Source: Solitalea lacus
GTDB taxonomy: Bacteria > Bacteroidota > Bacteroidia > Sphingobacteriales > Sphingobacteriaceae
Direction of reading: 5' to 3'
DNA length: 64,000 nucleotides
Assembly (NCBI RefSeq): GCF_022014595.1
Contig: NZ_CP091740.1
Coordinates: 3,088,200 to 3,152,199, forward strand
Of this stretch, positions 21,275 through 26,935 are shown one piece after another. Position 1 is the first letter of the stretch, and the number at the start of each line of letters is the position of its first letter. The notes below the pieces were generated by a model. That model did no database searches. It was given only the letters and a program-made list of their open reading frames with translations, and was not told the DNA's origin. The position numbers were made by a program, and so were the translations under genes.

Positions 21275-21808
21275 ATGAACAAATTTGTGTCTTTTTCACT
21301 ATTGCTTGTTGTTGTAACCATTTCAGCATGCACTAATTCAATCAATAAAAAACCAAACACATCTACTTATTTTGATTTAAAGGAGTACTTTGAGAACGAA
21401 GCGAAAAGACTCAACAGAGAGAATCCGAAAGTAGAAAAAACGGTAAATGATAATGGTAAGCAAGAAACAAAGGCCGTTCTAAATACTATCTGGCTGAATG
21501 AACTCAGCGTTTTCATCAACTCAAACATCAATAAACCGGCCTGGAGCAAAAGTTATTCTGTAACATCAACAGACTCCACAGAAGAATACAAGGCCCTGGA
21601 CTCGAGCTTAAAAACTCAATTTATTAAAATATCCAAGGGCAAAACAGGTATAGACAAAATCTTTATCCAAAATCATACAACCAATGAATTGTATGAGTTA
21701 GATGAAAAACTCTATTACGAAAGCAAAAAAATATATAGAATTGAGCGCGTACAAAAAGCTACCATGTTAAAAGAAAGCACATTTAGCATAGTAGGGAAGT
21801 TTTTGTAA
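21275..21808 (+). CDS. Small lipoprotein of unknown function; 3' end altered by mobile element
   Basis: 177 residues. The lipobox TISACTNS places the lipidated Cys at about residue 19. The rest is hydrophilic and Lys/Glu-rich with no recognised domain. The stop codon lies at the junction with the group II intron remnant. A 10-base repeat of the gene's last bases (21795-21804) recurs at 25275-25284 on the far side, where the sequence would give a nearly identical end (GKFF then stop). The original protein was therefore probably the same length and little harm was done. Confidence 0.65.
   Translation: MNKFVSFSLLLVVVTISACTNSINKKPNTSTYFDLKEYFENEAKRLNRENPKVEKTVNDNGKQETKAVLNTIWLNELSVFINSNINKPAWSKSYSVTSTDSTEEYKALDSSLKTQFIKISKGKTGIDKIFIQNHTTNELYELDEKLYYESKKIYRIERVQKATMLKESTFSIVGKFL
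21795..21804 (+). repeat. Left copy of 10-bp direct repeat flanking the intron remnant
   Basis: GGAAGTTTTT here recurs at 25275-25284, immediately beyond the right end of the intron remnant. It is short and AT-rich, so chance is possible. Confidence 0.45.
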
Positions 21809-22401
21809 TCGAGTAGGAAGATAGGGATTATTTCCCTATCTGTCCTCTCACACCACCGTACGTACGGTTCTCGTATACGGCGGTTTCTTAATTTACACAA
21901 CGCAATTTTTGATAGTAGTCAGTAAAGAACAGGTAGCCCGATTGCTTAAGACGTTCGTTGGTGATACTTCTGCTAAGGATTTGGCTATTAGCTGTACGCC
22001 AGTAGCTTTTCCTCGTGTTGCCGTATTCCTTTGCCTTGTTTTTCGGGATACCCAGTTTTATCAGATTCCTAATTCGGGTTTTGATACTTTTCCATTGTTT
22101 CCATATCAATGACCTGATTCTTCTTCGATACCATTCATCTATGCGTTCCAACAATCCTTTCATGTCTGCCAGCTGAAAATAGTTAAGCCAGCCTGTGATG
22201 TACTGTCTTATTGATTCCTTTCGGCGTTCATTGCCCCATCCGTTGCTCCGTGAGGTCAGTTCTCGGATTTTGTCTTTCATCTTTTCAACACTTTTCTTAT
22301 GGGTGCGCATTTTGCAACCATTTTTGTTGAAATAGAATCCATACCCCAAGAACTTAACATCCTTGACGTGTGCAACTGTGGTTTTCTCTCTATTTACTTT
22401 C

Positions 22402-22448
22402 AGATAAAGCTTTTGTTCGATATAGTTTGTAAGGCTGACAAGCACTCT
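22402..22448. repeat. Left copy of 47-bp target-site duplication
   Basis: 47 bases identical to 24053-24099, directly abutting the IS left end at 22449. They encode the RT residues LVSLTNYIEQKLYL on the minus strand, so the duplication is of maturase sequence. Confidence 0.92.
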
Positions 22449-24052
22449 CCTGACTTGTTCAAATTAGGTCAGCAAATTTAGTTTCTCAATTAGTGTTATA
22501 ATTTTGGAGTTTGAATTAGCTCTCATCGTGATTTCCTTTCCTGTAATTTTGTTCTTTAACCGAGCGTCCGTTATCTTTTTACATTCGTGAATAAAGCTTT
22601 TAATAGATGTTTCAGTTTTTAGTTCAATATTTTTCGATATGATCAAAGCCATGAAGCATATTAATAAATGAAGCTTTATCGGCTCCTCCTTATAATGGAA
22701 TATTGGCCTTGTCTGCAAGTCGCTTTTAGATATCCTAAAAGCCTGCTCAATCCTGTAAAGCTCGTGATATCGATCTATGATGTTTTGATTATTAGCCGCT
22801 GATTCTGGAAGATTCGTATAATAACCTTTAATTCCCAGCAGTTTATGGGTTTTATCGATAAGCTTCTGGTTGAGCTCCATTTTTTGTCCTAATGATTTGG
22901 TAAACTTGAGCTTCTTGTTTTTAGATGGGTTATCAATCAAATATTTTGCCTTTTCCATCTGTTTCTCCATTTCATATTTATCTTTTCGATAGCGCAAGGA
23001 TGAATAGCTGCAGATTAGATCCCCGTTAGACGTTTTTATCCGGATATTTTGTCCATCTTTTCTAGTGATGTTGCCATTAATTTCAGCCAGTAAATCACTA
23101 GATATATTTCCCAACCGCGCACCTACAATATAGTTGATGCCATTTTCGTTTAAAGCCATACTGTTTTCAGTACTTATCATTGCAGCATCCGCAACCACGG
23201 TAAGGATTTCTACATTGTGTTTCTTGATAAAGCTTTGTATTACCGGAATAAAGGTATGGCCTTCGAAAGTATTGCCTGGAAATACTTCATACCCGATAGG
23301 TAATCCTTCCTTGCTTACCATCAATGCGATGAGAATCTGTGGCTGTTGTGATTTGTTATCTTTAGAAAACCCATTTTTACGCAGATCATCTGACTCAAAG
23401 GTCTCAAAGTAAAGTGTGGTTACATCATAAAAAACAAGGTTATAGTCAAAGTTATAGTGTTCCTGAGCAAACTTAACAGCAATGTTCTCGGCCTTTGTTT
23501 TTAGGTCCAACCATTGTGGAGCAGAGTCATAATACTTTTGCCTACGATGTTTTATGCCAAAATATTCTTCCAACAAACCAATAGAACGAAGTTTTGATCC
23601 AGGTTCAATCATTCTCATAATTACCAGATCCAGAAGAAAGTTGTTTTTCAACTTATCAAATCCAATGTAAATAATCAGCTTGGAGATCAATTCATGAAAG
23701 AATGAATAATATACGCCTATAAACTCGGTCTGTTTGATGTTTATAATATTGTCAGACTGAGCGTCATTGAATAGGAATAGTTGCTTAGTAACTGTTTTGA
23801 TATAATCGTTAGCAAGTGTGAGTAAACCTGCAAGTTCATCGGGAGAGCGAGCAGTGCCTATATGCCTTAAAATAACTCTTTTACGATTTTCAATCTTATA
23901 AATTTGAACTGAAGTCGATCCTGCTGCGTACTGGATTTGCCTAATTTTATACACTTTTTAACTTTAGGTCAGCAAAACGCCAAAATAATGAAAATAAACA
24001 CAACAATATCAAGTACTTATATTTTAATCATAAGTACCCCGGACAAGTCAGG
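22449..24052 (-). mobile_element. IS1634-type (IS4 superfamily) insertion sequence
   Basis: 1604 bp with one transposase gene. Ends carry a perfect 10-bp inverted repeat, CCTGACTTGT at 22449-22458 and its complement at 24043-24052. The element is flanked by 47-bp direct repeats inside the maturase gene. Inside it, a 13-bp direct repeat (TTAGGTCAGCAAA) sits at both edges of the transposase gene, near 22465 and 23964. Confidence 0.9.
22464..23954 (-). CDS. IS1634-family transposase
   Basis: 496 residues, apparently intact. VFYDVTTLYFET holds the first catalytic Asp of the DDE triad, TVVADAAMIS the second, and YHELYRIEQAFRISKSDLQTRPIFHY is the C-terminal Y-(2)-R-(3)-E-(6)-K-like block. LICFMALIISKNIE follows, as in IS1634/IS1549-type enzymes. 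The start is GTG at 23954 (MYKIRQIQYA). Because the gene and both IS ends are whole, the element may still be mobile. Confidence 0.9.
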   Translation of the reverse strand: MYKIRQIQYAAGSTSVQIYKIENRKRVILRHIGTARSPDELAGLLTLANDYIKTVTKQLFLFNDAQSDNIINIKQTEFIGVYYSFFHELISKLIIYIGFDKLKNNFLLDLVIMRMIEPGSKLRSIGLLEEYFGIKHRRQKYYDSAPQWLDLKTKAENIAVKFAQEHYNFDYNLVFYDVTTLYFETFESDDLRKNGFSKDNKSQQPQILIALMVSKEGLPIGYEVFPGNTFEGHTFIPVIQSFIKKHNVEILTVVADAAMISTENSMALNENGINYIVGARLGNISSDLLAEINGNITRKDGQNIRIKTSNGDLICSYSSLRYRKDKYEMEKQMEKAKYLIDNPSKNKKLKFTKSLGQKMELNQKLIDKTHKLLGIKGYYTNLPESAANNQNIIDRYHELYRIEQAFRISKSDLQTRPIFHYKEEPIKLHLLICFMALIISKNIELKTETSIKSFIHECKKITDARLKNKITGKEITMRANSNSKIITLIEKLNLLT

Positions 24053-24099
24053 AGATAAAGCTTTTGTTCGATATAGTTTGTAAGGCTGACAAGCACTCT
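24053..24099. repeat. Right copy of 47-bp target-site duplication
   Basis: Identical to 22402-22448 and abutting the right end of the IS1634-type element. Confidence 0.92.
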
Positions 24100-25274
24100 T
24101 TCAGCAGCTCGGCGGCTTTTACAGAATACCATACAGTCGTCAGCGTATCTGACAAAACGATGTCCTCTTTCCTTTAGTTCCTTGTCCAGTTCGTTGAGCA
24201 TTACATTGCTCAACAGCGGACTTAGGTTTCCTCCTTGCGGAACTCCCATCGATGTCTCTTGAAATTTCCCCTGTATCATTACGCCTGCTTTTAGGTATTT
24301 ATGTATCAATGATACTACCCTGCCATCAGGGATGGTTCGGGATAAAATCTCTATCAGCTTGCTTTGGTTAACAGTATCGAAGAATTTTTCCAGATCCATG
24401 TCCACAACGTAACGATAACCGTCGTTTGCGTTGGTTTGGCACTGCTTTATGGCCTGATGAGCACTGCGTTTTGGACGGAAGCCGTAACTGTTGGGCGAGA
24501 ATTGTCGTTCGTAAATAGGTGTTAATTGTTGGGTGATTGCCTGCTGAATGACTCTTTCCACTACTGTAGGGATGCCTAAAGCTCGCTTTTTGCCGTTCTC
24601 TTTGGATATCTCGACCCTACGAACGGCTTGCGGTTTATACCGCCCATTTTGTAGTGAGTCAAGCAGTTCTTCTCGATGGGATTGTAAGTAGGGCAAAAGC
24701 TTTTCCACATTCATCCCATCAACCCCGCCTGTTCCATTGTTACGCTTAACTTGTTTGTAGGCCGCATTAAGGTTGGATGGCGAGAGTATATACTCTAAAA
24801 GTTGGGCTTGTTGCCCTTGCGTTGTGTTGGTGTTTCCTTTTTCAGTCATCCATAGATATGTCTGCCCTCCAGAGCCTGATTCGGTTTCCGACCTATTTCC
24901 GCTCTGCCAGGTGTCTTGCTCCGTTTTCTGCTTTCTACCATTCATACAGTAACCTTCATTTGATGCTCACCTCTTAAGATTCGACCCTTCCCCTGCTAAC
25001 TCGTAGCAGCGTACTTTGATCTCTGCTGATTTCTGACAGCAATTGTTAGCCGTGTTTCATACTGCTTGTTTCCGCACGTCTGCCAGACCTCCCGTGGTAA
25101 ACCTATACACTTTCTCCCCATGTAACCGCCTTATTTACACTCCAGTATCCGGGTAGTTATTGGACTTCGATTTGTTTTGCAACCTCATCCTGCTGGATAT
25201 GCCTGATAGGGTTCGTGTTCCTCGGTTCAGGGATTTGCCTCAAGCTTCCTTCTATGTTGTAAAGCAAGAGATCT

Positions 25275-25284
25275 GGAAGTTTTT
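25275..25284 (+). repeat. Right copy of 10-bp direct repeat flanking the intron remnant
   Basis: GGAAGTTTTT as at 21795-21804; the bases that follow (TTTAATG) complete a plausible original 3' end of the lipoprotein gene. Confidence 0.45.
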
Positions 25285-25292
25285 TTAATGAT

Positions 25293-25409
25293 TACCTTTG
25301 TGATATAAATCCGAAGAGGAAGTGGGCGCTGCTGGAGAGCAACTCACCAGCAATAGGATTTATGACGGTGAATATAGCTTTGAAGCCCCACAATGACAGG
25401 GGCTTTTTT
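25293..25409 (+). ncRNA. Candidate small structured RNA
   Basis: TACCTTTG (25293-25300) fits the -7 consensus. About 5 bases later begins a segment with nested pairing: ATAAATCC (25305-25312) with GGATTTAT (25356-25363), enclosing GCTGG (25331-25335) with CCAGC (25347-25351). It ends in a strong terminator (AAGCCCC 25383-25389 with GGGGCTT 25399-25405, then T's). No ORF fits. No known RNA family was recognised, and no -33 element is visible, perhaps because the intron insertion separated it. Confidence 0.4.
25383..25409 (+). terminator. Rho-independent terminator
   Basis: 7-bp GC-rich stem, 9-base loop and six T's on the plus strand. It may end the candidate small RNA or originally the lipoprotein transcript. 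Confidence 0.75.
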
Positions 25410-25495
25410 GCTGTATTCATTGTCCTAAATGGCTAAAGAAAACTCTCTTGCCCTGAATCTTCAGACACACCTGTCTTTTCAATGAACTAAAAGCC

Positions 25496-25655
25496 TATAA
25501 AAACATCCTTCTATTAGCAGAACCGGTAAATCGGGCTGCAATGCCGTGTTTAATTTTTTATAGATAGTGAGCTGTAGCCTTCAGATAGCAGATACAGAAT
25601 GACCAGCACTGCAGGAAGCGTGTTATCAGTCTCAGATTAAAAGGATGTTTTTATA
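25496..25655. repeat. 160-bp element bounded by perfect 15-bp inverted repeats
   Basis: TATAAAAACATCCTT at 25496-25510 is exactly complementary to 25641-25655. The 130 bases between have no ORF. It lies just downstream of the IS110 transposase stop. It could be a MITE-like element or the 3' non-coding end of the IS110 element; no clear target duplication is visible. Confidence 0.5.
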
Positions 25656-25668
25656 TGGCGTTTTAGTT

Positions 25669-26748
25669 TTATTTAACCACTGCACACTCATATTCTTGTT
25701 TGTTTATTAATACATACCTGATTCTGTTGAGTAATTTCCGGGCTATTCTTACGATGGCCTTATTCGGTTCCATTCGCCGGCAATACTCATGAAAACTTTT
25801 AGTCAGTGCCGGATCCAGGCGTGCGGCTACCCATGCACTTTCAATCAGGGCGCTGCGCAGCACGCTATGCCCCCGTCGGGTGATAGTACCGGCTAGTTCT
25901 TTTTCCCCACTTGAATGCGTCGAGGGGATGAGTCCTATAAAACTGCAGAGTTGATCCGTGTTTTTAAACCGGTTAATCGTCTCCAGCTCGGTTAATAAGG
26001 TCATGGCCGTTAATAATCCGATGCCAGGGATACTTCGCAGTAAAGCGATGGCTTCCTGGTAAGTACCTGTTTTTGATAGCTCTAGTAAATGCCGGGTGAG
26101 TTGCAATACAGAGGCTCTCAAATGTTTCGCTTCTAAAATCATGGCCTGCAGGGCCGTTTTACTACTCTGCTCAGCCATAGCGATGCTTTCCAGCCAATCA
26201 ACAAAAGGTTTCGACCAGTGGGACTGTTTTTTGGTGAAGGGCGCAGGTAGTTCAATGCCATGAAAGTACAGGAACGATTTTACCCGGTTTTTATACCGGG
26301 CAAGGTCCTTGGTCAGTATGGACCGGGTGCGAACTAAACAACGGTCCTCTAGGGTTTTACTGGAAGGAACATAAATCGGGATTAAGGCGCCACTTCTTAA
26401 TGAGTGTGCGATTTTACGGCTATCCCTGGAATCCTCTTTTTGCACTTTTTCTTTATCGGTGGTGGGAATATCGGCAGGATTGACCACGATGGAGTGAATG
26501 CCCAGAGCCTCCAAGCGGTTATGGATCCAGTAGCCGCAGAAGCCTGCTTCGTAGGCGGAATGATAGGTGCCGCCGGGGAAATTCTGCCGGAGATACTGGT
26601 GTAATACTTCGGGTTTAGGTGGCTGCGAAAAGGTTTTATGGGTGAGCAGTTCAGTCATAACGGTAACCTGCCAGCTTTTTAAGTGCACGTCAAAACCAAC
26701 ATAAATGTTTTGACCGCTAAAATCTAATTGATTAACTTGTGGTTGCAT
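25669..26748 (-). CDS. IS110-family transposase (DEDD recombinase)
   Basis: 359 residues. The N-terminal RuvC-like domain has IYVGFDVHLKSWQV (first Asp), YEAGFCGYWIHNRLEALGI (Glu) and TTDKEKVQKEDSRDSRKIAHSLRSG (paired Asp). The C-terminal domain RSIPGIGLLTAMTLLTEL and FIGLIPSTHSSGEKELAGTITRRGHSVLRSALIESAW carries the conserved Ser region. Full length, no frameshift, so probably functional. Confidence 0.93.
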   Translation of the reverse strand: MQPQVNQLDFSGQNIYVGFDVHLKSWQVTVMTELLTHKTFSQPPKPEVLHQYLRQNFPGGTYHSAYEAGFCGYWIHNRLEALGIHSIVVNPADIPTTDKEKVQKEDSRDSRKIAHSLRSGALIPIYVPSSKTLEDRCLVRTRSILTKDLARYKNRVKSFLYFHGIELPAPFTKKQSHWSKPFVDWLESIAMAEQSSKTALQAMILEAKHLRASVLQLTRHLLELSKTGTYQEAIALLRSIPGIGLLTAMTLLTELETINRFKNTDQLCSFIGLIPSTHSSGEKELAGTITRRGHSVLRSALIESAWVAARLDPALTKSFHEYCRRMEPNKAIVRIARKLLNRIRYVLINKQEYECAVVK

Positions 26749-26811
26749 AAGTTCCAGTGTTATAAAATTTTAGGGGTTCTTTCTTAAATTTACATAACTT
26801 CCTGGAACTTA
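26748..26811 (-). promoter_or_regulatory. Inverted repeat overlapping the IS110 transposase start
   Basis: TAAGTTCCAG (26748-26757) is complementary to CTGGAACTTA (26802-26811). The hairpin it would form in the mRNA reaches the ATG (26748-26746) and could limit translation. Confidence 0.45.
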
Positions 26812-26935
26812 TTCCTTTACAAACATACGGCCTGCAGATTCCGCTTCGCAACGGACACCCTTGCTCTTGGCTAATGGTTGGTAACTACCGACCCCCATAG
26901 AGGACTTGCACCTCCTAGTTTATAGATATGCACGG
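26812..26935 (-). ncRNA. Candidate IS110 bridge RNA
   Basis: The minus-strand leader upstream of the transposase has several local hairpins: AGGA/TCCT around GGTGCAAG (about 26900), GGTCGGTA/TACCAACC (about 26870-26888), and TCCG/CGGA (about 26840). IS110 elements are known to encode a bridge RNA in this place that pairs with target and donor DNA. Boundaries and loops are inferred, not computed. Confidence 0.5.

Follow-up and report, generated by a model that had tools for sequence, protein, structure and literature searches.

The window, the whole 64,000-nucleotide stretch of the Solitalea lacus genome analysed here, contains a group II intron on the minus strand (21808..25267), recognizable at its outer ends by domain V (RF00029, 21808-21885) and domains D1-D4 (RF02001, 25101-25267) and broken by an insertion sequence (IS) of 1,604 bp (22449..24052, minus strand). 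The IS separates two parts of the intron reverse transcriptase (RT)/maturase open reading frame (ORF), both on the minus strand: a 5′ part with the RVT_1 domain (24028..24945; PF00078, E=8e-38) and a 3′ part with the maturase domain, GIIM (21888..22445; PF08388, E=1e-19). The edges of the IS, as defined by its inverted repeats and by the borders of the flanking direct repeats, carry 10-bp terminal inverted repeats, read on the plus strand as CCTGACTTGT at the transposase-downstream end (22449..22458) and as ACAAGTCAGG at the transposase-upstream end (24043..24052). Between them lies a gene for a DDE transposase of 496 aa (22464..23954, minus strand; PF01609, E=2e-12). Each inverted repeat is directly abutted by one copy of a 47-bp direct repeat (22402..22448 and 24053..24099), and the two copies are identical at 47/47 positions.

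An IS1634-family element with a 47-bp target duplication

An earlier note, made from the sequence alone, had described an IS1634-type insertion inside a maturase, enclosed by perfect 47-base repeats that run up to 10-bp inverted repeats, and had proposed that excising the IS plus one repeat copy restores the reading frame and that the insertion is recent. The arrangement described above agrees with this account, and so do the following results. The transposase scores 294.8 bits against the NCBIfam IS1634 model NF033559 (cut-off 100), which assigns the element to the IS1634 family, and both its length and its ends, CCTGACTT, match the family's size of 1,500-2,000 bp and terminal pattern C-----YT. 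Alignment of conserved residues places the catalytic triad at D177 (YDVTTLYFE), D256 and E403 and a leucine, L399, at the arginine of the YREK motif (Y396-x2-L399-x3-E403-x6-K410); a DDE triad together with a YREK motif that lacks the arginine is a family trait (PMC2266710). Unlike the 5-6 bp usual in the family, the 47-bp duplication is of its long and variable kind.

The same genome also holds an empty site, an uninterrupted intron copy (C1:2592658) in which the 47 bp occur a single time; its gap-free alignment to the rejoined intron sequence covers 1,814 bp at 99.2% identity. Because the 47-mer is single in this closest intron copy and the alignment has no gap there, the repeat is a target duplication, and we are almost certain that it was made by the insertion. 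A perfect 47-base repeat that touches both inverted repeats and occurs once at the empty site also excludes chance. In silico removal of the IS and one 47-mer left a 475-codon open frame (467 codons from Met) in which RVT_1 is joined to GIIM. A recent event fits the data, given that the repeats are 100% identical and that the two genome copies of the element have 100% identical transposases.

The genome contains six other copies of the intron, with 92-100% identity; the seven copies fall into three sequence groups (100%, 95% and 92%; L239, L233-L237), which points to recent spread of the intron. An IS110-type element adjoins the intron (25244-26840, transposase 25669-26748), and a 99.8% identical copy of it (L041, 5510-7107) is nested in an IS1634-type copy that has a 406-bp duplication.

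Duplication lengths in the genome and across the family

The genome, a single contig of 4.40 Mb, has 11 intact IS1634-type copies and one fragment. Three types make up the intact copies: the window element, whose two copies (the second being L002) have duplications of 47 and 28 bp; a 61% identical type with the same ends (four copies, L003-L006; 165, 155, 50 and 886 bp); and a 34% identical type with ends CTTGAGTTTGACAG (five copies; 495, 368, 128, 1,353 and 406 bp). The earlier note had suggested surveying the other copies for short, fixed duplications, and the result was the opposite: all 11 intact copies have long duplications, each of a different length and each with perfect repeats. A separate, short element (L042, 5721-6224; 444 bp) has ends of the CCTG type, a direct repeat of 30 bp and the decayed fragment of a transposase; it may be an internally deleted, non-autonomous derivative of the long-duplication type.

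Across the family, 56 long duplications of 27-1,353 bp (median about 128) were measured in Bacteroidota, Actinomycetota, Campylobacterota, Mycoplasmatota and viral contigs, the contributors including further Bacteroidota, Persicobacter, Aliarcobacter, Rhodococcus, Actinomyces, Mycobacterium riyadhense and Mycoplasmopsis gallopavonis. In G009, a complete genome from a different genus within the host's bacterial family, the duplications of five copies measure 580, 567, 418, 149 and 38 bp. In older copies, with repeat identities of 97-99%, the direct repeats still stop precisely where the inverted repeats begin. A short class, with duplications of 4-7 bp, was found in Geobacillus, Alicyclobacillus, Sphingobium, Mesorhizobium, Bradyrhizobium, Paraburkholderia, Pseudonocardia, Dietzia, Rhodococcus opacus and one Bacteroidota group, as well as for ISAzo6, and no surveyed IS1634 element gave a confident measurement of 8-26 bp. 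We do not claim a hard lower limit at 27 bp (P=0.005 for none shorter among 46, under an exponential distribution with the same mean), because 8 bp has been reported for known elements. DNA wrapping or helical phasing as the setter of length was rejected, as the first 46 duplications had no 10.5-bp periodicity (R=0.06).

In some ten copies from the long clade both ends could be read, but the flanks examined contained no duplication (for example L048, L117, L118, L140, L252, L264 and L272). Only two duplication-less copies, both in G195, a complete genome from the same bacterial class, could be traced to recombination, so some of the others may be deletion or other products. Of the four copies in G195, one has a duplication of 325 bp and one of 131 bp; the remaining two (L153 and L154) lie in opposite orientation without duplications of their own. 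Their left flanks share 281 bp and their right flanks 156 bp, inverted in both cases, which indicates an inversion through recombination between the two copies. The exchanged flanks, with their mismatched long duplications, thus record a 43-kb inversion, and long duplications could help to polarise such rearrangements. L048 has A-purine sequence at both junctions despite having no duplication, and could have arisen by deletion or by recombination.

A single change of duplication class

IQ-TREE analyses of 45 and then 65 transposases placed a single change of duplication class on the tree, the branch between the classes having support of 99/99 and then 100/99 (the 65-protein tree is unrooted). 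One element with a 7-bp duplication (L218) was left out because its ORF is probably on the wrong strand; an intermediate quick tree had two class changes, which we attribute to a misread L218 row and to long branches. The window transposase groups with the long-duplication elements across the 100/99 split, and long duplication is very probably a trait of the whole clade within the IS1634 family. The proposal in the earlier note that the element extends a habit of IS1634 and IS1549 to a Bacteroidota host is supported, with a shift of emphasis: Bacteroidota elements do make long duplications, but the trait is clade-wide rather than one element's extension. A 616-aa IS1634-family transposase from a Lactobacillus johnsonii plasmid (L143), with motif DCTNFYFE and a long branch, is placed weakly with Mycoplasmopsis elements.

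The known elements were compared with this clade. IS1549 and IS1634 make long, variable direct repeats of 8-514 bp (Plikaytis 1998, via PMC2266710), and IS1634 of Mycoplasma mycoides subsp. mycoides, likewise with long variable repeats, is the type element of the family (Vilei 1999, via PMC2266710), both papers being cited here as the family review reports them. That review, from 2008, offered no model for these variable duplications (PMC2266710). IS1549 of Mycobacterium smegmatis resembles the window element in family and in its long variable repeats, but has an Actinomycetota host and a longest reported repeat of 514 bp, as opposed to 1,353 bp in the present survey. A relative of IS1549 in Mycobacterium riyadhense has a 608-bp duplication, and relatives of IS1634 in Mycoplasmopsis gallopavonis have ends CCTGAGTTTCC and duplications of 43-400 bp. 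The IS1634 transposase is distant, the motif at the first catalytic Asp being DNTTVYF in its relatives and DVTTLYF in the window element. Judging from the positions of these M. riyadhense and M. gallopavonis relatives as proxies, IS1549 and IS1634 themselves probably fall in the long-duplication clade. ISGka5, ISPfe2 and ISAzo6 share the family model, related ends and the DDE triad with the window element, but they make 6-bp duplications (PMC8024623 for ISGka5; PMC3281130 for ISPfe2; ISAzo6 measured in the present survey). ISAzo6 and one Geobacillus element lie on the opposite side of the 100/99 branch from the long class.

The classes also differ at the first catalytic Asp, where long-class proteins read D-x-T-T-[LVI] and most short-class proteins have T-S in place of T-T. 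All 12 elements with determinable repeats among those examined after the motif had been noticed fit their duplication class, four T-T-L elements having duplications of 93, 47, 52 and 86 bp and eight others of 5-6 bp, although two viral elements among those counted had been measured beforehand. Two T-T-L copies (L252 and L245) had no repeat in the flanks examined. The motif is a sequence marker of the long class and not evidence of cause, because the class changes only once on the tree; a minor change next to the first catalytic Asp is a possible mark of the switch in duplication mode.

Both ends join the same kind of target site

At 102 junctions from 51 insertions, the 3′ end of the IS was joined to a target strand whose first base (+1) was A in 79% (background 29%). 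This A is a target base, because the far repeat copy carries the same A. Positions +2 to +6 of the joined strand were purine-rich, and bases outside the duplication had little preference. The A was found at 33/44 junctions of duplications shorter than 100 bp and at 48/58 of longer ones, and was weaker in high-GC hosts (12/24). At all duplication lengths, both ends thus join the same kind of site, a 5′-A within a purine tract. T was present at +5 and +6 at only 14% and 22% of the 102 junctions.

A proposed sequential scheme and its rivals

The survey shows that the spacing of the two joinings is uncoupled. The polarity of insertion was uniform, with all 20 insertions enumerated in the three complete genomes G000, G009 and G195 being duplications and none a deletion. 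The predicted model of the window transposase (pTM 0.70) has the Tn5 transposase (1muh) as its nearest solved fold (E=3e-6, TM 0.39-0.42); a sequence search against solved structures found no relative. Tn5 (IS50, IS4 family) differs in having only ~11% identity and the full YREK motif, and IS50 makes duplications of 8-9 bp (PMC2266710). The Tn5-like fold of the model makes cut-and-paste excision of the element likely.

Whether the transposase of this clade leaves the distance between its two target cuts unfixed, with the second joining occurring later and repair copying the gap, we regard as an evenly balanced question. In such a scheme, the Tn5-like transposase would excise the element and one IS end would join the target first. 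The target would then be unwound, or copied from its freed 3′ end by strand-displacement synthesis from the first nick, until the second end meets an acceptable A-purine site further along and joins the opposite strand there. Host polymerase would fill both single strands and so produce the long repeat, and the duplication length would be set by the extent of unwinding or synthesis before the second joining. We infer these sequential strand transfers, with unwinding or synthesis between them and repair making the repeat, at a confidence that ranges from tentative to even, and the same holds for the sequence in which the ends join and for the part that a polymerase or helicase would play. In its fullest form the scheme is a two-ended DDE transposition, by one clade of IS1634 transposases, whose transfers keep a fixed polarity but no fixed distance (27 to at least 1,353 bp) and in which the second end joins once unwinding, or synthesis from the first nick, has taken place; to this we give somewhat less than even credence. 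If true, it would represent a pathway between simple cut-and-paste and replicative transposition, with a logic like that of target-primed retroelements.

The main rival to the sequential scheme is simultaneous joining of both ends at a target that is already open, such as a replication fork, a lagging-strand gap or an R-loop, where the size of the opening would set the length. Okazaki fragments have lengths of the order of 1,353 bp, the upper end of the duplications measured; the geometry of a gap would also give strict polarity, and the sites look normal at both ends. However, joining to double-stranded DNA would be expected to give just such a shared sequence choice at the two ends, and the link of the sites to replication or transcription is an assumption. 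We consider a pre-opened target rather less likely than not. It is improbable that each end picks its place and polarity independently and at random, with half of the products being deletions that are lost by selection. Such joining would accommodate the broad, continuous length distribution and the copies without a duplication, but not the absence of deletions among the 20 insertions, given that most would have removed only 50-500 bp and that many sites are non-coding. Even less probable is a secondary rearrangement, in which two neighbouring insertions with 5-6 bp duplications recombine with each other and leave one IS and a long repeat. Recombination between copies does occur, as in the G195 inversion, but it would be needed for 11/11 copies in the Solitalea genome with no short-duplication copy left, the symmetric 5-6 bp half-sites would predict a T at +5/+6, facing the +1 A, that is mostly missing, and duplication class tracks the transposase phylogeny; this explanation was rejected. 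The same applies to an assembly artefact, which, together with a chance repeat, we give next to no credence, the general caution that repeats assemble badly being outweighed by long duplications in several single-contig genomes, plasmids and several phyla, by the exact coincidence of the repeat edges with the inverted repeats and by the empty site in the same genome.

Novelty and consequences for the host

Long variable duplications by IS1549 and IS1634 have been known since 1998. The literature searched, from which subscription papers were mostly absent, contained no description of them in Bacteroidota; relative to this literature, the Bacteroidota members, the lengths up to 1,353 bp, the restriction to one clade, the motif, the site rule and the polarity all appear new. 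A clade-wide trait, a sister clade with 4-7 bp duplications, a candidate motif and a target rule together provide a testable contrast between related enzymes.

A long duplication also alters the cost of insertion, as genes that start or end inside the duplicated stretch remain intact on one side; in an arrangement A-D-IS-D-B, a gene is broken only if it extends across the whole of D. Judging from crude ORF calls, a predicted gene spans the whole duplication at 11 of 44 reconstructed sites, and a 5-bp duplication would instead have broken a gene at 27 (left junction) and 20 (right junction) of them. For duplications of at least 120 bp, the same crude calls gave a broken gene in 3/23 cases, compared with 16 and 10 for a 5-bp duplication. 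Selection may contribute to this low count of broken genes.
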